From Acetobacterium malicum subsp. dehalogenans DSM 11527 (GTDB lineage: Bacteria > Bacillota > Clostridia > Eubacteriales > Eubacteriaceae), in contig NZ_AXAC01000028.1 of assembly GCF_000472665.1 (NCBI RefSeq), forward strand, positions 180-64,179: 64,000 bases of DNA. Reading direction: 5' to 3'. Below, piece after piece: positions 26,475-36,065 of this stretch (positions are counted from its first letter, which is position 1; every line of letters begins with the position of its first letter). A program made the translations under genes and the position numbers. Under the pieces are notes generated by a model that ran no database searches, was not told the DNA's origin, and was given only the letters and a program-made list of their open reading frames with translations.

Positions 26475-27746
26475 TTATTCCACAATTACCGCAACCCCAT
26501 CAGGGATCACCGTCACGGTGGCAGCTTCATTATTCAGATAATCCCGGGCCATCGCCAGCGCTTCCTGGACATCCTTAGCCGGGGTCATTTGAAACGCCTT
26601 GATCATTTCATCCGGGGCGGCCGAGATATAAATCACCTTGGCCTTTAATAAGATCCGCGCCAGAATCTGGGCTTCCCACTGATCGGGGATGGTTTCGTCC
26701 CGGGGGGTGTTGACAAAACCAGCCAGCATCTTGTCGAGATTTTTCTCATCCCGGAAGGTATTGAAAAAGGTCGCGCCGCCGTGACCATCGTTGGACTTAG
26801 CCAGCATGATAATCACGCCGCCGGGTTTAACCGCAGCTTCGGCAGCGGTCATGCCTTTAACCGCCTGGTAAATGTTCTGATCCAGGGGATAACCGCCGTT
26901 GCTGGTGATGACGATATCACTGGGGGTTGCCTGAACCTTGCAGAGCCCTTCCAGAAACGTCCGGCCTTTGATATGGGCAGCGTCGCAATCGCCGGCTACG
27001 GCATAAATCACTTCTTTTTCAGAATTGATCACCACATTGACCACAAAAGCCAGATTGGCTGTTCTGGCAGCGTAAAGCATATCAATATGGAGGGGGTTCC
27101 CTTCAATCACACCGGTGCGGGCTTTGGGGTGGGCAATAAATTCGCCGCAATGATTGGCCAGCACACTGACCCGGCTGGCGATGCCCGGCAGTACACTTTT
27201 TCGTCCGCCGGAAAAACCGGCAAAGAAATGGGGCTCAATAAAGCCTTCGGAAACCAGCAGATCGGCTTCGGCGGCCAAACGGTTGATGATCAGCTCCCCG
27301 CCGGAGGGCAACGTGCCGATTTTCACCAGACTGTTGTCATCCCCGGAATCATGAACAACAATCCGCTCCTGATCAACGATGGCCTCACCAAATTTACCGA
27401 CCAGCTCCTCTCTGGTCGTCAAGCGGTGAAACCCGGTGGCAATTAAAATGGTGATCTCGGCGGCGGGATTACCTTTGCGGATTTCGCTAAGCATCAACGG
27501 CATAATAATTTTACTGGGCACCGGCCGGGTATGGTCACTGGCAATAACGACAATCTTCTGTTTACCAATCGCCAGCTGGCACAGCTTGGCCGACCCCTCG
27601 GGCTGCTCAAGTGCCGCGGCCACCAGCTCGCTTTGGCTTTTATCGGGATGATAGTCTTCAATCTGGGAGACGAGGACGCCATTAAGATAAGCCTCCTCAA
27701 TCTCCAGCCGTTGTTTTTCTTTTCCATAAGGTATTCTAATTTCCAT
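26475..27746 (-). CDS. lctF: Lactate racemase, nickel-pincer type
   Basis: LarA-family enzyme of 423 residues that interconverts D- and L-lactate using a nickel pincer cofactor bound to a lysine. His107 (ATGFHRL), His173 (EPHFFAGFSGGRK), Lys183 and His199 fall one position from the cofactor and catalytic residues of Lactobacillus LarA, and SDHTRP is conserved. ATG follows AAAGGAACAG. It is the last gene of the lct operon, after a hairpin that may reduce its expression. The cofactor-making larB, larC and larE genes are not in the window and must lie elsewhere if the enzyme is active. Confidence 0.92.
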   Translation of the reverse strand: MEIRIPYGKEKQRLEIEEAYLNGVLVSQIEDYHPDKSQSELVAAALEQPEGSAKLCQLAIGKQKIVVIASDHTRPVPSKIIMPLMLSEIRKGNPAAEITILIATGFHRLTTREELVGKFGEAIVDQERIVVHDSGDDNSLVKIGTLPSGGELIINRLAAEADLLVSEGFIEPHFFAGFSGGRKSVLPGIASRVSVLANHCGEFIAHPKARTGVIEGNPLHIDMLYAARTANLAFVVNVVINSEKEVIYAVAGDCDAAHIKGRTFLEGLCKVQATPSDIVITSNGGYPLDQNIYQAVKGMTAAEAAVKPGGVIIMLAKSNDGHGGATFFNTFRDEKNLDKMLAGFVNTPRDETIPDQWEAQILARILLKAKVIYISAAPDEMIKAFQMTPAKDVQEALAMARDYLNNEAATVTVIPDGVAVIVE

Positions 27747-27772
27747 AGTCTGTTCCTTTCTGATTAGACGAA

Positions 27773-27804
27773 AGACACTAGAAAATTTTATTCTTCTAGT
27801 GTCT
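27773..27804 (-). repeat. Inverted repeat between lctE and lctF
   Basis: Perfect 11-base arms AGACACTAGAA/TTCTAGTGTCT with a ten-base AT-rich loop. Only a short T-stretch follows in the minus direction, so it may be a weak terminator or an mRNA-stability hairpin at the permease-racemase boundary. Confidence 0.6.
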
Positions 27805-27821
27805 CGATTTACACGTTTGTT

Positions 27822-29363
27822 TTATCCAAAAGTACTCAAAAGCCCTTCCATCAATGGTGCTCCAAAATAGACCACCAACCCAATAATTAAAACGTAGATG
27901 GCACAGACCTTCAGAGTTGCCTGGAGAATCTTTCCTTCGCTGCCAATAATACCAGTGGCGGCAGTGGCGACGGCAATACTCTGGGGTGAGATCATCTTAC
28001 CGGCGGTAGCACCAGCCGTATTAGCAGCCGCCAGCCAGTAAGGACTCATGCCGATGGCGTTGGCGGCCTCGACCTGAAGCCCGCCGAACAGCACGTTGGC
28101 AGAGGTATCACTACCAGTGACAAAGGTTCCCAGGGCTCCGATCAATGGCGCAATCAGCGGATAGAAATCGCCGGTGATCAAAACCAGAATCTGGGCAATG
28201 ACGCCGATCATACCGCTATAACCCATCACCTTGGCCAGCGCCACAATCGACATGATGGTAATCGCTGATTTAAACATTTGCTTAACCGTTTTACCAAGAA
28301 TAGTACTGATCGCACCAAACTTGACGCCCTGAATCAGTCCGCCCAGATAGGTGGCAATGATAATCAGGGTTCCTGGGGTAGCCAGCCAGTAGAAGGTCAT
28401 CGGCTTGCCATGAGGTCCGGTGTAGATCTGAACCGTGGTACTGACCTGCTTCAACAACCCATTAATCATCGGGAACAGCGATGAACAGAGAATAATAATG
28501 GCAAACACCAGAATGAAGGGCAGCCAGGCCTTGACGGCGGTTTTGAAGGGGATTTTTTCCACATTTTTAGCAGCGGTATCCTTATAAAACACCTTGGCCA
28601 TCAAAATCACTACGCCCATACAGATAACCGAGCCGACAATTGCCGGCAGTTCAGCGCCCAGGTACTTGGCCACAAAAATCTGCGGCAAACCAAAGGATAG
28701 ACCGGCCATCAAGGTAATGAAGAAGACCCCTTTGATCGCTTTGACACTTTTCCCGGTAATACTGACTAGAATAAAGGGAATAATCACAATCATCACAAAC
28801 AACTGAATCGCAATGGTAAAAGACAAATCGTTTACATTTAAGCCCGTAACTGAGGCCAAGGTGCTGACTGGCAAACCAATGGCACCAAAAGCAGTGGGGG
28901 TGGTATTGGCAATCAGGCAAATAATGGCGGCAAACACCGGGTTAAAGCCCAGCGCTGCTAAAATGCTGGCGGGAATGGCAACGGCTGTACCAAAGCCGGC
29001 AATCGCTTCCAGAAAACCGCCAAAACCCCAGGCCAGGATTAATACCAGAATCCGTTGATCGGTAGAAACCGAACTCATCATTTTTTTGATGGTTTCCATG
29101 CCACCGGTGTGAGTAACCAGATTATAGGTAAAGACGGCGGCGACAATGACCAGGAAGATCGGCCAGATCGCCATGGCAGCCCCTTCCAGAGCAGCAGTCA
29201 AACCATCGATGACCGGCATCTTCCAGACCAGAATACTCAACACGACGGTCAGTGCCAGGGCAATGGGACAGGCTTTTTGCCCGGGGATCTTTAAGACCCC
29301 CAGGGAAACAATCAGCCAGGCCACCGGGATCAGGGCGACGAAGAAAAGTAACAAGTTATCCAT
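27822..29363 (-). CDS. lctE: L-lactate permease
   Basis: Integral membrane transporter of the LctP family, 513 residues, with a dozen or so hydrophobic segments. Family signatures include FGGFLEAIAGFGTAVAIPAS and, near the C-terminus, GALGTFVTGSDTSANVLFGG and NTAGATAGKMISPQS. It imports lactate, probably with protons. Its ATG follows an AGGGTGAG site that overlaps the lctD stop codon, so the two are translationally linked. Order in the operon corresponds to lctE of Acetobacterium woodii. Confidence 0.95.
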   Translation of the reverse strand: MDNLLLFFVALIPVAWLIVSLGVLKIPGQKACPIALALTVVLSILVWKMPVIDGLTAALEGAAMAIWPIFLVIVAAVFTYNLVTHTGGMETIKKMMSSVSTDQRILVLILAWGFGGFLEAIAGFGTAVAIPASILAALGFNPVFAAIICLIANTTPTAFGAIGLPVSTLASVTGLNVNDLSFTIAIQLFVMIVIIPFILVSITGKSVKAIKGVFFITLMAGLSFGLPQIFVAKYLGAELPAIVGSVICMGVVILMAKVFYKDTAAKNVEKIPFKTAVKAWLPFILVFAIIILCSSLFPMINGLLKQVSTTVQIYTGPHGKPMTFYWLATPGTLIIIATYLGGLIQGVKFGAISTILGKTVKQMFKSAITIMSIVALAKVMGYSGMIGVIAQILVLITGDFYPLIAPLIGALGTFVTGSDTSANVLFGGLQVEAANAIGMSPYWLAAANTAGATAGKMISPQSIAVATAATGIIGSEGKILQATLKVCAIYVLIIGLVVYFGAPLMEGLLSTFG

Positions 29364-29371
29364 TTCTCACC

Positions 29372-30772
29372 CTACATCTGACAGACTTTTTTAGGATTCA
29401 GCAGATTCTTGGGATCAAAGGTTTGTTTGATCCCGGCCATCAGGGCCAGATGTTCCGTTCCAAAATCATTGAGCAGATATTTTCGTTTGGCGTAGCCGAT
29501 GCCGTGTTCGCCGGAAACCAGTCCGCTAAACGTCAGGGCCTTAGCATACATCCGGTCCATCGCTTCTTCCAGTTTGGCTTCCCATTCCTGTTGGTCAAGT
29601 TTGTCCCGACAGACATAGATATGAAGGTTGCCATCGCCGGCATGACCAAAGCTGGGGATCCGGACATCCATTTCGGCGGCCAGCTCATGAGTAAATTCAA
29701 TAAACTCGGCGATCCGGTTTCGTGGTACCACGACGTCGCACTCATCCATTTCGGTGGTCGAGGCTTTAATCGCCTCCAGGAAGGCACCCCGGGCTGACCA
29801 GACCGATTCTTTACGCTCGGCGGTGTCGACAATATAAACATCTTTGGCACCTTCGGACAGACAGAGGTTAGCGACGACTTCGTATTCAGCTTCGACCTGT
29901 TCCTTGGAATTGCCGTCAAAGGTCAATAAGATATAGGCGTTGCTGCTGGAATCCGGGAATTTTTTACCGAGAAAATCTTCAGCAAAAAGAATCGTCTGGC
30001 GTTCCATAAATTCAATCGCGGTGGGAATCGCCTTGGATTTAATAATCTTGGGAACGATCCCGGCCGCATCACTGATATTATCAAAGGGAATTAGCAGGCT
30101 CAGGGTCATCTTTGGTAAGGGCAAAAGTTTGAGGATCGCTTTGGTGATCACACAGAGGGTTCCTTCGGAGCCGACGACCAGATCTTTTAAGCTGTAACCG
30201 GAGCTGTTCTTAACGATTTTGCCGCCCAGCTCGATGATTTCGCCGTTAGATAAGACCACTGTCAGACCGCGGACATAGTCCCGGGTCACACCGTATTTCA
30301 CGGCCCGCATACCGCCGGCATTGGTGCTGATATTACCGGCAATGGTGGCCGATTTTTCACCGGGATCGGGCGGATAAAAGAGATCATTTTCTTCGACAAA
30401 TTTGGACAGTTCCATCAACAGGACGCCGGGTTCCACGGTAACGGTCAGGTTTTCGGTGTCCAGTTCGAGGATATTGTTCATCAGTGTGGTTTCTAACATA
30501 ATCCCGCCAAACAGTGGGACACAGGCTCCCACCAGCCCGGTGCCGGAACCCCGGACGACAACGGGAATATTATGATCATAGGAATATTTCATAATTTTTG
30601 ATACTTCTTCGGTGGTGGTTACCTTAATTAGCACTTCCGGATAGGAATGGATGCTGCCCAGCTCATCATGGCTGAAATCTTCACCAATTTGGTCACCGAC
30701 AAAGATCCGTTCAGCAGGAATCAGGTCCTTTAAAAAATCAATATCCTTTGCTTCCACTTTTTTATAATTCAT
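29372..30772 (-). CDS. lctD: FAD-dependent lactate dehydrogenase, bifurcating complex
   Basis: Oxidises lactate to pyruvate and passes electrons to the LctBC flavoprotein. 466 residues of the GlcD/D-lactate dehydrogenase family: the FAD-binding region shows [12 protein letters not shown] and [16 protein letters not shown], and the C-terminal FAD-oxidase domain has [12 protein letters not shown] and [11 protein letters not shown]. The start is taken as the ATG at 30772, one base after the lctC stop; a further ten codons in frame (to 30802) overlap lctC and are less likely. In the known Acetobacterium complex, lactate oxidation by NAD is driven by simultaneous ferredoxin oxidation. Confidence 0.94.
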
Positions 30773-30773
30773 C

Positions 30774-32030
30774 TTAGCCAACCATCCTTTCTGGTGTTTC
30801 AATGGCTTCAGGCATCGCCAGGGTTTTCCCGACGGCAGCGCTTTCCGGATCAGAAATCATTTTTAACAGTTCGGGGATGATTTCGTATAAATCACCGACC
30901 ATGCCGCAATGGGCAATATTAAAGATTGGTGCTTTGGGGTCATTATTGACCGCAATAATATATTCGGAATTCTGCATCCCGGCGGCAAACTGGACCGCAC
31001 CGGAAATACCCAGGGCAATGATCAGTTTCGGTTTAACGGTTCGGCCGCTGAGGCCAATCTGCAGGCGGGCATCAAACCAGCCGGCTTCGATGCCGGGTCG
31101 GGTACAGGCCACGGTAGCGCCGATTTTTTCAGCAAACTCATGGATCATCTCCAGATCTTTTTCGCATTTTACGCCCCGGCCAACCGCTATAATGGTTTCG
31201 GCTTCCGAAAGATCAAGGCCTTTTTCTTTTTTAATGACTTCCAGCACTTCAATGGCTGAAATCAGTTTCTCTTTGCCGATTTCCATAATTTCCACACTGC
31301 CCCAGGGTTCTTTAACCAGTTCCGGAGCGGAAAATACTTTATAACGGACGGTACAGAACTGTGGTCGGGTGTTTTCAGTCACAATCTGGGCCATAATATT
31401 CCCGCCAAAGGCTGGTCGAATCTGAACCAGATCGGTATTGTCTTTCATTTCCAGAATGGTACAGTCGGCGGTGAGACCGGTGCGGTAACGGGCAGCGACG
31501 CGTGGCGCCAGGGAACGACCGACGTTGGTGGCACCAACTAAAATTGAAGATGGCTTTACTTTTTCGATAAAATCTTCCAGGACGTTAGCATAGGGTTCGA
31601 TCACAAAATGTTTGAGTTCCGGCTGATCGTAGACAAATACCTTATCGACCCCGTAGCTAAGCAATTCGCTGGCTTCGGCGGTGATATTGGTCCCCATAAA
31701 CAGGGCGTAAACCGGATGACCGATCACTGCGGCCAGTTCCCGGGCCTTACCGATCAGTTCAAAGGTGACCGGATGAATCTTGCCTTCAATGTGATCGACA
31801 TAGACGGTAATGCCTTTGTACAGGCTTTTGTCGATGGCGATCTTTTCATCTTCTTCCAGTACCAGCACGCCGGCTGGTCCGTTTTTCAAACACATCTTGC
31901 ACATTTTACAGGCGGCGGTGACTTCCAGTCGAGCGTTTACATAAGAAAAGGCATCGAAGGGGCAAATTTCTGCCAGTGCCTCAAAGGTTTTTTGATCAAC
32001 GTTTTCCTTGATTATTTTAATTCCTGCCAT
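30774..32030 (-). CDS. lctC: Electron-transfer flavoprotein alpha subunit with N-terminal iron-sulfur domain
   Basis: EtfA of the lactate dehydrogenase complex, 418 residues. An extra N-terminal ferredoxin-like domain carries Cys23, Cys41, Cys44 and Cys47, enough for one [4Fe-4S] cluster, which is a mark of the acetogen LctC/CarE-type subunits. The body has [20 protein letters not shown] and the C-terminal FAD-binding segment with [16 protein letters not shown] and [11 protein letters not shown]. Start ATG follows GAAGGA. 13 bases after lctB and 1 base before lctD, so one operon. Confidence 0.95.
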
Positions 32031-32043
32031 GATTTTTTCCTTC

Positions 32044-32838
32044 CTAGCCTAAATATTTTTTTTCAGTTAAAATTCCCATCAGGGCCTGTGCCAGAGCTGG
32101 TCCATCGCCCTCAAAGCTGGTTTTTTCGACGTTGCTTTCCGGCGGGAAGATTCGTTCCACCTGGGTTGGCGAGCCGCTGAGGCCATATTTTTTTTCATCG
32201 GTGTCGTACATATCTTTCAGGGTCAAAACTTTAATTTCGGGATTTTCGGAAATTTCCAGTTTTCGTTTATAGGAAGGTAAGCGCGGGGTGTAAATGTCCT
32301 TATCGACAGTGATCAGGCAAGGGTATGGCACCCGTTGGATTTCCAGCGACTCTTCCATGTTCATTTGCAAGGTCAGACCCTTTTCATCAGCCATCAGAAT
32401 TTTGATGACGTTGGTAACGTGGGGAATTCCCAAAAATTCAGCCATTTCCGGACCAACCTGGGCGGTATCGCCATCGGTGGTCTGCTTGCCACAGATGATC
32501 AGATCAAAATGACCTAGTCTTTTAGCCCCCTGGGCCAGCGTATAACTGGTGGCGACCACATCAGCCCCGCCAAATTTTCGGTCAGATAATAAACAGCCCT
32601 CGTCAGCGCCCATATAGAAAGATTCGAACAGCACTTCTTTACTTTGCATCGGACCCATCGACAAGGTGGTAATGGTGCCGCCTAATTGTTCTTTTAAACG
32701 AAATGCGGTTTCCAGACCAAATAAATCATAGGGATTCAATTTTGATTCAACCCCATCCCGAATCAGGACACCTGTTTCCGGATCCACTTCCACGTTGGAC
32801 GTTCCCGGAACCTGTTTGATACATACCAGTATTTTCAT
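32044..32838 (-). CDS. lctB: Electron-transfer flavoprotein beta subunit
   Basis: EtfB, 264 residues, the subunit that holds the bifurcating FAD and the NAD site in this class of Etf. It begins [19 protein letters not shown] and includes [36 protein letters not shown] and the terminal segments of the family. ATG follows GGAGGGTAAG. First gene of the lctBCDEF operon; the leader from the predicted promoter (33138-33166) is about 290 bases. Confidence 0.95.
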
Positions 32839-33076
32839 ACTTACCCTCCATAAAATAAATTAAATTGACATTTCGAGTTACCATGAGCGTTATGCTCCGT
32901 TTCACAAATGCCGAACGATGCAAATCATTTGGTTAAGACCTGAGCGAAATTTCTTTTGCTGTCCATTTCAGCAACAGACAGCAAGGAAAATGTTCTTTCA
33001 TCATAAATTCCGCTGTCGACTGAGCTGGTCAATCGACGAAAACTGTTAAACCCTCTTAAACCCATTCATAAACCAC

Positions 33077-33105
33077 TTGACAAATTTCTGATAAAATTCT
33101 ACTAT
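33077..33105 (+). promoter_or_regulatory. Plus-strand promoter facing the lct promoter
   Basis: TTGACA (33077-33082), 17-base spacer, TACTAT (33100-33105). It would start near 33112, just before the lct operator, and run against the minus-strand lct promoter. It could be a distal promoter for the regulator gene. Confidence 0.5.
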
Positions 33106-33112
33106 TGGTCTG

Positions 33113-33125
33113 GTGGTCAGACCAC
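33113..33125. promoter_or_regulatory. FadR/LldR-type operator
   Basis: Perfect palindrome GTGGTCAGACCAC, containing TGGTCAGACCA, which fits the TNGTNNNACNA consensus of FadR-subfamily GntR regulators and closely resembles LldR lactate operators. It lies at about +7 to +19 of the lct transcript, where bound repressor would block elongation or initiation. Confidence 0.8.
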
Positions 33126-33137
33126 TAACCTGTTGCC

Positions 33138-33166
33138 ATTATATGTGTTTCGTAAATATTTGTCAA
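33138..33166 (-). promoter_or_regulatory. Promoter of lctBCDEF
   Basis: Minus-strand consensus TTGACA (33161-33166), 17-base spacer, TATAAT (33138-33143). Such a strong core promoter implies control mainly by repression at the adjacent operator. Confidence 0.85.
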
Positions 33167-33217
33167 GTGGTAAAATAACGTTTTCAGAAATTATTTATTT
33201 CCTGATATTTTATCTTT

Positions 33218-33246
33218 TTGAATTTTAAAAGCGGCTGTGGTACAAT
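33218..33246 (+). promoter_or_regulatory. Proximal promoter of the lct regulator gene
   Basis: TTGAAT (33218-33223), 17-base spacer, TACAAT (33241-33246), giving a start near 33253 and a leader of about 45 bases. Confidence 0.6.
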
Positions 33247-33298
33247 GATTTATTATGACTTTTATAAAAAATTGAATGAAATGAAGTGAAGTGTTTAG

Positions 33299-34009
33299 AT
33301 GTTTAAAGAAATTACGCACACAAAAATATATTTGCTGATCCTCGAGCAGATTAAAGAAAATATTATCAAGGGAAATTTAAAAAGCGGCGACCGGCTGCCC
33401 TCGGAACGGCAATGGGCGGAACAGCTGGGGGTTTCCCGAGCGACGATCCGGGAGGCGATCCGGGCCCTGGAGATGATTGGCCTGGTGGTCTGTCAGCAGG
33501 GCGAAGGTAATTTTATTGCTGAAAATTTTGAAAATACCCTGACCCAGCCGCTGACAATTATGTTCTGGCTCAGCAATGGGCAGCTCAGTGAGGTTCAGGA
33601 ACTGCGGCGGGCGCTGGAAACTGAAGCCGCTAAACTGGCGGCCAAAAAAATGACGCCGGAACGGTTTGCCAGTCTGGAAAAAATCTGTGATGCCATTGAA
33701 ACTGAAACTGACGAGTCAGTCCGGGCCGAACTGGACAAGCGCTTCCACTATGAAATTGCCATGGCCTCGGAAAACAAGATGATCCATAACGTCCTGCTAT
33801 CGTCGGCAACCCTGATTGAAGCGCTGATCAAGGATATCCGGATTGCTATTCTCGATGATACTCAACGGGGACCGGTGATTGACAAACAGCACCGCAAGAT
33901 CTTAAACGCCCTGAAAGCAAAAGAGCCCCTCAACGCCGCCTTTGCCATGTCCCAGCATATGGATCTGATTGACGGATTTGTGGCCGGGCTGGAAATTGAT
34001 GAACACTAA
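33299..34009 (+). CDS. lctA: FadR-subfamily GntR regulator of lactate utilisation
   Basis: Transcription factor of 236 residues. N-terminal winged helix with SGDRLPSERQWAEQLGVSRA and TIREAIRALEMIGLV; C-terminal all-helical FCD domain with the metal/ligand residues expected in ELRRALETEAAKLA, DKRFHYEIAMASENKMI and HRKILNALKAKE. It lies opposite the lctBCDEF operon with a LldR-like palindrome between them, so lactate-responsive repression is the natural reading. The symbol follows the Acetobacterium woodii locus; the ribosome binding site is weak. The next gene overlaps its 3' end by 11 bases. Confidence 0.85.
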   Translation: MFKEITHTKIYLLILEQIKENIIKGNLKSGDRLPSERQWAEQLGVSRATIREAIRALEMIGLVVCQQGEGNFIAENFENTLTQPLTIMFWLSNGQLSEVQELRRALETEAAKLAAKKMTPERFASLEKICDAIETETDESVRAELDKRFHYEIAMASENKMIHNVLLSSATLIEALIKDIRIAILDDTQRGPVIDKQHRKILNALKAKEPLNAAFAMSQHMDLIDGFVAGLEIDEH

Positions 34010-34382
34010 AAAAATTTTTTATCTAATATTGGGATGTATCAGTCTGGCACTTGGCACAATTGGCACCTTTTTGCCAATGCTGCCCTGCGCGCCCTTTTTA
34101 CTGCTAGCAACCTTTTGCTTTACTAAGAGTTCTGACCGCCTTCATACCTGGTTCATTCAAACAAAGCTGTATCAGAGTAATCTGGAATCCCTGGTTAAAG
34201 GCCGAGGAATGACCAAAAAGGCCAAATTACGAATCATCTCAATTGTGACCATTACGATGCTGTTAGGTTTTATTATGATGCGGGCAACGACAATTGGGCG
34301 AGTGGTTTTAAGCATTATCTGGATCTGCCATCTGCTTTACTTTGTGTTTGGTGTCAAAACCCTTGCCGCAAACGATCTTTAG
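33999..34382 (+). CDS. YbaN/DUF454-family inner-membrane protein
   Basis: Small membrane protein of 127 residues. The N-terminal hydrophobic hairpin contains GTIGTFLPMLPCAPFLLLA and FCFTKSSDRLHTWF, the signature of the YbaN/DUF454 family, and a second hydrophobic pair lies at the C-terminus. The ATG at 33999 overlaps the last codons of the regulator gene in another frame, indicating translational coupling. Function is unknown; its link to lactate regulation may be incidental. Confidence 0.8.
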   Translation: MNTKKIFYLILGCISLALGTIGTFLPMLPCAPFLLLATFCFTKSSDRLHTWFIQTKLYQSNLESLVKGRGMTKKAKLRIISIVTITMLLGFIMMRATTIGRVVLSIIWICHLLYFVFGVKTLAANDL

Positions 34383-34387
34383 ACGAT

Positions 34388-34436
34388 AAAAAAAGCCAGC
34401 CACTGTGATTTAATTCACAAGCGGCTGACTTTTTTA
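34388..34436. terminator. Bidirectional terminator between YbaN-like gene and phosphohexomutase
   Basis: AAAGCCAGCC...TGTGA paired with TCACA...GGCTGACTTTTTT, one-sided bulges, A-run and T-run on the two flanks. It can end both convergent transcripts. Confidence 0.8.
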
Positions 34437-34483
34437 TTTACCCAATAATTTATTTCATCTTTTCAGAAAAAATTATAAACGAT

Positions 34484-35968
34484 TTATTCAAGGCCCTGAT
34501 ATTGAGTCAGAAATTGCTTTAATACAGTCTCGATGATTACGCCACCCCCCACTGTATCAGATTCGATATTCAGTGGCATAATCGGGTCATGGAGAGACAT
34601 CCGCAACAGGCACCAGCCGTTTCCGGCGGTGGCATCACAGCTCACCCTGACGCCTTCATAGTTGGGACGTACGACAGTCCAGCCCGGTTGACTGGCGGCG
34701 AATTGTTCAAATTCAGCCAAAACCTTTTCACCGTACGACTTAAAGTCCTCAGCGGCAATCTTTAACCGGATTTCTTTGGCTTCGACCGGTTCCTTGAGTC
34801 CTTCAAGAAACGAACTGATCGGCTTGCCGGCCTTATGCAGTTCAGCGAATTTGATCAGCGCCATAGTCACCAGATAAGCGCCATCATCCAGAAAATAGTT
34901 AGCTTTAATGGCCCCGTGGCCGCTGGTTTCCATGGCCAGGTGGGTTTCGATACCCGCGTTATTTAAACGGATGGCCTCATTAATGACGTTTTTATAGCCC
35001 CGTTTAAAGCGATGATGTTTCCCGCCCCGGCTCTCAATATACTCGGTTAACCCGGTGGACGTAATCGAATCAGTGACAATCGTCGAGCCGGGATACTCGA
35101 CCAGCAGCATGCTGGCAATAAAGGCGATAAAGCCATTACGATTGATGGCGTTACCTTTTTCGTCGATAATCGCGGCCCGATCCACATCGGTATCAAAGAT
35201 GATCCCCAGATCAGCCTGGTTATCCCGCACCGCTTTAGTGACATGTTCAATGGCCACTGCATCTTCCGGATTTGGCACGTGGTTGGGAAAATTGCCGTCG
35301 GGGTCCAGATATTGACTCCCGGTTGTTTCAGCTCCTAACGGCCTCAACACCTGGTCTACAAAAAAGCCCCCGGCTCCGTTACCGGCATCTACCACAATTT
35401 TTGCGCCAGCCAGCGGCTGATCAGTGCCAGTTTTAGAGCGAATAATATTTAAAATGTTCTGGGAATAGCTGGGCAAAAAATCATAGTCCAGGGCCTGCCC
35501 TCCGGGGGTAAAGCCGGTTTCAATGGTCTCGGCCATTTCCAGAATCGCGCTGATATCCTCTTTATTAAGACCGCCGTCTTTAGTAAAAAATTTCAGCCCA
35601 TTACGGTTAAAAGGTAAATGACTAGCGGTTACCATCACCGCCCCATCTGCTTGCAGCACCGGATCGATGGTGGTCATAAACATCGCCGGGGTGGTACTGA
35701 TGCCGCATTGATAGACCTGGTTGCCTTTACTGACCAGACCCAAAGCCACCGCCTGCGCCAGATGGGGTCCGGACAGCCGGCTGTCTTGGCCGATGGCAAA
35801 GGTCAGCGGCGTCTTCTCCAGCTTTTCCTCCAACCACGTGGCAAAAGCAAAGGCAATTTTCATGGCCATATCCTGGGTGAAATTGACATCTTCACCGGGA
35901 ATCCCCGCCAGGGCAACTCCCCGGACGTCGGAACCATTTTGTAATTTTCTGATATCTTTAATTTCCAT
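34484..35968 (-). CDS. Phosphoglucomutase/phosphomannomutase family protein
   Basis: Alpha-D-phosphohexomutase of 494 residues. Phosphoserine loop VTASHLPFNRNGLKFF (usual TASHNP replaced by TASHLP), metal-binding loop DTDVDRAAI, sugar-binding ETSGHGAIK and phosphate-binding region PNYEGVRVSC. Domain order is normal. ATG follows CAGGAGATT. Substrate (glucose, mannose or glucosamine phosphate) is not settled by these motifs. Transcribed in the same direction as the arginine genes upstream, but 173 bases away. Confidence 0.88.
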   Translation of the reverse strand: MEIKDIRKLQNGSDVRGVALAGIPGEDVNFTQDMAMKIAFAFATWLEEKLEKTPLTFAIGQDSRLSGPHLAQAVALGLVSKGNQVYQCGISTTPAMFMTTIDPVLQADGAVMVTASHLPFNRNGLKFFTKDGGLNKEDISAILEMAETIETGFTPGGQALDYDFLPSYSQNILNIIRSKTGTDQPLAGAKIVVDAGNGAGGFFVDQVLRPLGAETTGSQYLDPDGNFPNHVPNPEDAVAIEHVTKAVRDNQADLGIIFDTDVDRAAIIDEKGNAINRNGFIAFIASMLLVEYPGSTIVTDSITSTGLTEYIESRGGKHHRFKRGYKNVINEAIRLNNAGIETHLAMETSGHGAIKANYFLDDGAYLVTMALIKFAELHKAGKPISSFLEGLKEPVEAKEIRLKIAAEDFKSYGEKVLAEFEQFAASQPGWTVVRPNYEGVRVSCDATAGNGWCLLRMSLHDPIMPLNIESDTVGGGVIIETVLKQFLTQYQGLE

Positions 35969-36065
35969 TTATTGTTAATCTCCTGGTAATGAATCACGTA
36001 CTAAGATCCGGGCCATTTAGGCTATTCTGTTCTGGTTGAGCGAAACCTCGAGTACTAGGCGGATT

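Follow-up and report, generated by a model that had tools for sequence, protein, structure and literature searches.

The window, by which we mean the whole 64-kb stretch of DNA analysed here, forms part of contig C18 of a 4.05-Mb genome, and gene content and domain assignments place within it the lctA/lctBCDE part of the Acetobacterium lct locus. The regulator gene lctA (33299–34009, plus strand) encodes a GntR/FCD (FadR-type) lactate regulator with 90% identity to the A. woodii protein. It is divergent from the operon and its product carries both a GntR DNA-binding and an FCD ligand domain. On the minus strand lie lctB (32044–32838), which encodes an ETF beta subunit and is the first gene of the operon, and an lctC-lctD-lctE block spanning 27822–32030, which consists of lctC (30774–32030; ETF alpha), lctD (29372–30802; FAD-linked dehydrogenase) and lctE (27822–29363; lactate permease). 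These four genes, lctB to lctE, were identified by their domains and are codirectional, as expected of an LctA-controlled lct operon. The scores of LctA did not reach the NCBIfam equivalog cut-offs of LldR, GlcC and PdhR, regulators with which it has the GntR and FCD domains in common. We found lctA in 17 of 19 Acetobacterium genomes; G006 and G012 yielded no match, so counts for lct regions are given out of 17. The lct region of G008 is split over two contigs, whose fragments were used separately, and one genus alignment omits this genome. The A. woodii version of the region is represented by G017: the lct-derived portion of the PlctA_rev primer published by Stock et al. 2026 (PMC12910521) is found in its lctB-side sequence.

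The lct promoter occupies 33138–33166 on the minus strand (TTGACA at 33166–33161, a 17-base spacer and TATAAT at 33143–33138), with a predicted start at approximately 33131. It matches the consensus at 12 of 12 positions. When the 460-base intergenic region was shuffled 2000 times with its dinucleotide composition preserved, such a match arose on either strand in only 0.1% of the shuffles. Immediately downstream, between lctA and lctB, is the LctA operator GTGGTCAGACCAC (33113–33125, approximately +7 to +19 of the lct transcript), which contains TGGT(CTG)ACCA at 33114–33124; this is the single copy of GTGGTCNGACCAC in the genome. The operator is of the TNGTNNNACNA kind, like those of GntR-FCD regulators of the LldR/GlcC/PdhR type. 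Promoter, spacer length and the 13-nt gap between the −10 box and the 11-base operator core are identical in all 17 Acetobacterium species. The core itself, TGGTNNNACCA, is exact in 15 species, with one substitution each in G001 and G011, and mean column identity reaches 17.0 of 17 for both lct boxes and 16.6 for the operator. The strong lct promoter described in the initial annotation, and the one FadR/GntR-type operator placed just downstream of it, are thus well founded. Both are of a known type and, in A. woodii, have already been described: LctA of that species is reported to bind an intergenic TGGT(CTG)ACCA and to be released upon lactate binding (PMC12910521, citing Schoelmerich et al. 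2018). The A. woodii LctA-lctBCDEF system (cited in PMC12910521 and PMC13372834) has the same divergent regulator gene, operator and lctB-lctE genes, along with the 90% identical LctA.

A wider LctA regulon was not indicated by a genome search, as TGGTCNGACCA occurred at eight places compared with nine for the reversed control and LctA-type sites are therefore not in excess. Two copies of GTGGT that form a direct repeat were considered as additional LctA half-sites and rejected. The copy at 33237 varies among relatives as TGnTANAA, in keeping with an extended −10 box, while the one at 33167 shows little conservation (mean 10.4 of 17). Directly upstream of the lct −35 box, a block with the sequence AAAATAACGTTTTCA (33172–33186) is nearly invariant in the 17 species and perhaps represents an UP element or an activator site. 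Nine bases within the spacer of the lct promoter (33148–33156, TTTCGTAAA) are also nearly invariant, which is unusual in a spacer.

A further plus-strand pair of boxes, assigned by the initial annotation to a position nearer the regulator gene, is present there and conserved. It comprises TTGAAT (33218–33223), a 17-base spacer and TACAAT (33241–33246), a 9/12 match with TG before the −10 box. The pattern TTGNNN-N16/17-TGNTANAA, with TGN counted in the spacer, was found in all 16 regions that reach this position and in the lctA-side fragment of G008, and hence in 17 of 17 species. This extended −10 promoter most likely drives lctA transcription. On contig C1 of A. woodii (G017), the corresponding starts are predicted near 1,004,824 for lct and 1,004,706 for the proximal lctA promoter; any distal start directed at lctA would fall near 1,004,851.

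The initial annotation centred on a second plus-strand promoter, TTGACA-N17-TACTAT, that would face the lct promoter across the operator. A single bound FadR-type dimer could block both promoters, and their collision on derepression would yield antisense RNA across the operator and could make the response switch-like. Every sequence string on which this proposal drew was found where it had been placed. The plus-strand boxes (TTGACA at 33077–33082 and TACTAT at 33100–33105) match the consensus at 10 of 12 positions. The predicted starts, each taken seven bases past the −10 box, fall at 33112 (plus) and 33131 (minus), approximately 20 bases apart as proposed, with the operator between them. This facing geometry is unusual. 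Among the 2000 shuffles of the intergenic region, 13.7% contained a plus-strand pair scoring at least 10/12 and 1.75% had pairs of that quality on both strands; of 5000 shuffles of 33030–33112, 0.9% had a plus-strand pair whose end lay no more than 25 bases from the operator. Across the 64-kb window it is also the sole face-to-face pair with at least 10/12 matches within 60 bp. A general promoter scan of 29000–36000 returned nine promoter-like sites where 9.7 were expected, and a single match is therefore of little weight. Both TTGACA boxes lie in a 14-base perfect inverted repeat (arms 33072–33085 and 33158–33171) that the initial annotation had missed; besides the window species, only G013 has it without mismatches.

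Conservation separates the two facing promoters. The plus-strand pair is retained with its spacing in six of the 17 Acetobacterium species, compared with 17 of 17 for the lct promoter. In G002 and G007 the TTGACA box is present and an insertion breaks the spacing, while G011 has TTGACT and no −10 box at the corresponding distance. There is no TTGACA at this position in A. woodii, A. tundrae, A. paludosum, A. bakii, A. fimetarium, G009, G018 or the G008 fragment. Mean column identity (of 17) is 11.8 for the plus-strand −35 box, 10.3 for the six bases that follow it and 13.7 for TACTAT. TACTAT itself forms the last six bases of a wider, 16-base element, GATAAAATTCTACTAT (33090–33105, approximately +27 to +42 of the lct transcript), which lies 7 bp from the LctA palindrome and was also missed in the initial annotation. 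The plus-strand sequence is therefore present with 10/12 matches, as had been described, while its role as a promoter is unconfirmed. Because the pair is kept in only six of 17 species and its TACTAT ends a shared element, there is no basis for joint regulation of both promoters by a single dimer, for antisense transcription over the operator or for a switch-like response. As to the last of these, plasmid-borne copies of the A. woodii region are reported to give leaky, gradual self-induction (PMC12910521, PMC13372834). The facing promoter is probably not real; to judge from the alignments, it is probably a clade-specific resemblance, whose −10 box is the end of the 16-base element. The A. woodii region lacks the plus-strand promoter. 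It does have the 16-base element, which goes unmentioned in the passages of PMC12910521 and PMC13372834 on this region.

Within the lct alignment, mean column identity is 16.4 of 17 for TGATAAAAT, compared with 10.3 for the six bases preceding it. The pattern of the element, GATAAAATTYTRCYAY, has 41 exact matches across the 19 genomes, 17 of which contain at least one, compared with three for the reversed pattern. These matches, which include orthologous loci and are to that extent non-independent, were assigned from their positions and the translated genes beside them. They comprise 14 in lct regions, 16 upstream of the gene for pyruvate:ferredoxin oxidoreductase (PFOR; one of them on contig C95 of G007), four upstream of a malic enzyme gene, six upstream of fhs (formate-tetrahydrofolate (THF) ligase) and one inside an ORF (G007, contig C89). 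In A. woodii (G017), exactly two sites match GATAAAATTTTGCTAT with at most one mismatch, namely those at PFOR and lct; in G014 the corresponding matches are at lct, PFOR and one position inside an ORF. When two mismatches were allowed in five genomes, the 62 matches equalled the 62 of the reversed control, so only close matches carry weight. One sequence thus recurs, above control, upstream of genes that are linked in function and lie apart in the genome, as expected of a shared regulon, with no excess at two mismatches. Its distribution is uneven. The lct copy is two mismatches from GATAAAATTTTGCTAT in G000, G001 and G003, the G011 lct region lacks the element, and none of the 13 lct-like loci that we examined outside Acetobacterium has it. 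Exact fhs and malic enzyme matches are confined to six and four genomes, respectively (plus G003 with two mismatches). A text search of the literature for the 13-base core of the element found no occurrence, and a term search for shared regulation of this kind returned nothing relevant, as judged by titles and the beginnings of abstracts.

The position of the element relative to predicted promoters was compared between loci. In all 18 PFOR upstream regions (17 plus L178), it begins six bases (once seven) after TGATATAAT, which puts it right at the predicted transcription start. The element is altered in G001, G003 and G012, and the −10 box of G012 is TGTTATAAT. Malic enzyme regions were collected by protein search (E ≤ 1e-100), which gave 24 matches in 15 of the 19 genomes. 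The five orthologues (91–100% identical) all have an inverted element with at most two mismatches within 220 bases, compared with none of the 19 paralogues. Shuffled versions of the upstream regions contained a two-mismatch match in six of 1440 cases and a one-mismatch match in none. In four of the five orthologues, the measured cases, the element lies six or 15 bases after TGnTATnAT; the fifth is G003. At fhs, where the six regions with an exact element were examined, it is again inverted and lies approximately 85–100 bases before the start codon, with the tail of a convergent reading frame on its far side in the two loci inspected. The element is thus in forward orientation at PFOR, the malic enzyme and fhs genes both have it inverted, and its offset from the predicted start varies from +1 at PFOR and +27 at lct to far upstream at fhs. 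Opposite orientations near predicted starts point to a DNA site bound by a protein and speak against both a −10 box and an RNA signal; we rejected the latter on these grounds. Known RNA families were found neither in 27000–36000 at gathering scores nor in 32800–33310 at E values up to 5, nor around the element in 12 loci. The consensus sequences of CodY, cre and Fur boxes were also compared by eye, and none fitted well. In L082, L086, L087 and L092, a possible nine-codon frame (MKFKKELWS) lies on the other side of the element from the malic enzyme gene and on the opposite strand to it; by eye, its copies differ only at third bases.

We favour, with reasonable though far from full confidence, a reading of the lct control region in which a single strong promoter has two neighbouring protein sites in its early transcribed region, the plus-strand pair being a resemblance. 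LctA bound at GTGGTCAGACCAC would block lct transcription until lactate arrives; both binding and release by lactate are published for A. woodii, and here the site alone was checked. A putative second DNA-binding regulator would use GATAAAATTCTACTAT, seven bases beyond the LctA site, and could couple lactate oxidation to pyruvate and one-carbon genes. The regulator gene would be transcribed from its proximal promoter at 33218–33246, which overlaps neither protein site. We put at about even the chance that the second protein is a pyruvate-node regulator, as yet undescribed, whose GATAAAATTTTGCTAT-type binding sites lie at the promoters of PFOR, lct, one malic enzyme gene and, in some species, the formate-THF ligase gene. 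In lct it would sit beside LctA, and the operon would answer both to lactate and to the pyruvate/C1 state.

There is a general class of operon promoters that combine a specific regulator site with a shared one, and lct would be similar in that its operon-specific LctA site adjoins a putative site common to other promoters. In our view, the worthwhile result is this candidate shared site, which may link lactate oxidation with pyruvate and one-carbon genes. Acetogens must choose between CO2 fixation and organic substrates, and a site common to lactate oxidation, PFOR, malic enzyme and a Wood-Ljungdahl gene would serve as bait for the regulator that links them. If the proposal is true, the A. woodii lctA-lctB fragment used as a lactate-inducible tool carries a second control site in addition to that of LctA. 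The reported repression of A. bakii LDH during heterotrophic growth (PMC6239172) loosely fits an input beyond lactate, and the leaky induction of the A. woodii region on plasmids is likewise in loose agreement with the overall reading.

The best-surviving alternative, which we nevertheless regard as unlikely, retains a distal plus-strand promoter for lctA and assigns it to the extended −10 box TGATAAAAT (33089–33097, start approximately 33104), so that LctA bound between facing promoters would block both. This box lies 24–28 bases before the operator in 15 of the 17 species, a TGnTAnAAT that close to the operator arose in 0.36% of shuffles, and a pyrimidine-purine pair is present at the expected start (33103–33104). 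Extended −10 boxes are common in transcription start data for A. woodii (PMC8407422) and A. bakii (PMC6239172). The T required for such a box is kept in the lct, malic enzyme and fhs copies that we saw, an observation that an extended −10 would also explain, and in four genomes the same sequence with its T stands 55–66 bases before the PFOR start codon. Several observations weigh against this alternative. At PFOR, a better extended −10 box, TGATATAAT, directly precedes the element in 18 of 18 regions, and the T is present in only five of these and absent from 13 while the rest of the element is kept. At the malic enzyme and fhs genes, TGATAAAAT points away from the gene. Conservation of the element continues to CYAY, past the end of a −10 box, and in the 12 lct-like loci of other genera that have an operator, the 70 bases ahead of it contain no TGnTAnnAT. 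A weak transcript may still start on the plus strand from TGATAAAAT.

There is still less to be said for TTGACA-N17-TACTAT as a promoter that functions in the window species and those closely related to it, with colliding transcription and a switch-like response, and we consider it improbable. The quality of the match, its facing position, its uniqueness in the window and its presence in six related species are in its favour, as is a 9/12 facing pair (TTGATA-N17-TAATAT) at L058 and L059, which belong to another genus. The pair is, however, absent or broken in 11 of the 17 species, A. woodii included, its TACTAT belongs to the wider element, and the gradual plasmid-borne induction noted above runs counter to a switch. 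Equally improbable is that the 16 bases are kept for a reason unrelated to protein binding, such as an initially transcribed region suited to start selection or pausing: the element does lie at or close to the starts predicted for PFOR and the malic enzyme gene, but in opposite orientations, and at fhs it is some 85–100 bases from the start codon.

Face-to-face divergent promoters of repressor and target form a class that includes bioA/bioBFCD and argE/argCBH of E. coli. If either plus-strand alternative were right, the lct arrangement would resemble these bio and arg promoters and that of scbA-scbR. For the latter, switch behaviour with bistability has been modelled for convergent transcription (PMC3134472). 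There, as in lct, an operator lies between opposing promoter-like sequences; the opposing promoter of lct differs in that it is not conserved and is known from sequence only.

Outside the genus, 13 lct-like loci were examined, and six weaker matches without such a locus were left out. At least one copy of TGGTNNNACCA was found in 12 of the 13. A promoter with 11/12 or 12/12 matches lies 12–14 bases from the operator in six of them (L053–L056, L058 and L059), and a weaker one was found in L057. This comparison indicates that a strong promoter with a downstream LctA-type site is common to related genera, whereas a conserved facing promoter is not; the facing pair of L058 and L059 mildly favours the initial annotation. 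In L057 (genome G030), two TGGTCTGACCA operators lie 32 bases apart before an lctB-like gene. L060–L064, from genus g7 of the family, encode LctA-like regulators with no lctB in the locus and a neighbour that by eye resembles lactate permease. In L060 the operator seems to lie between the −35 and −10 boxes.

Two further features were seen in the predicted lctB leader. A hairpin at 32944–32989 (minus strand) was recovered in 12 of the 17 lct regions with a pattern that requires an adjacent GCGAAA; one of the five non-matching regions is a short fragment. It has no Rfam match and no second genomic copy below an E value of 0.4. Standard pairs make up 95.1% of its pair cells, and for three pairs there is a single sequence in which both partners differ. 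Closer to the promoter, CTCTTAAACCCATTCAT (33053–33069) is conserved in the same predicted leader, with a mean column identity of 14.7 of 17.
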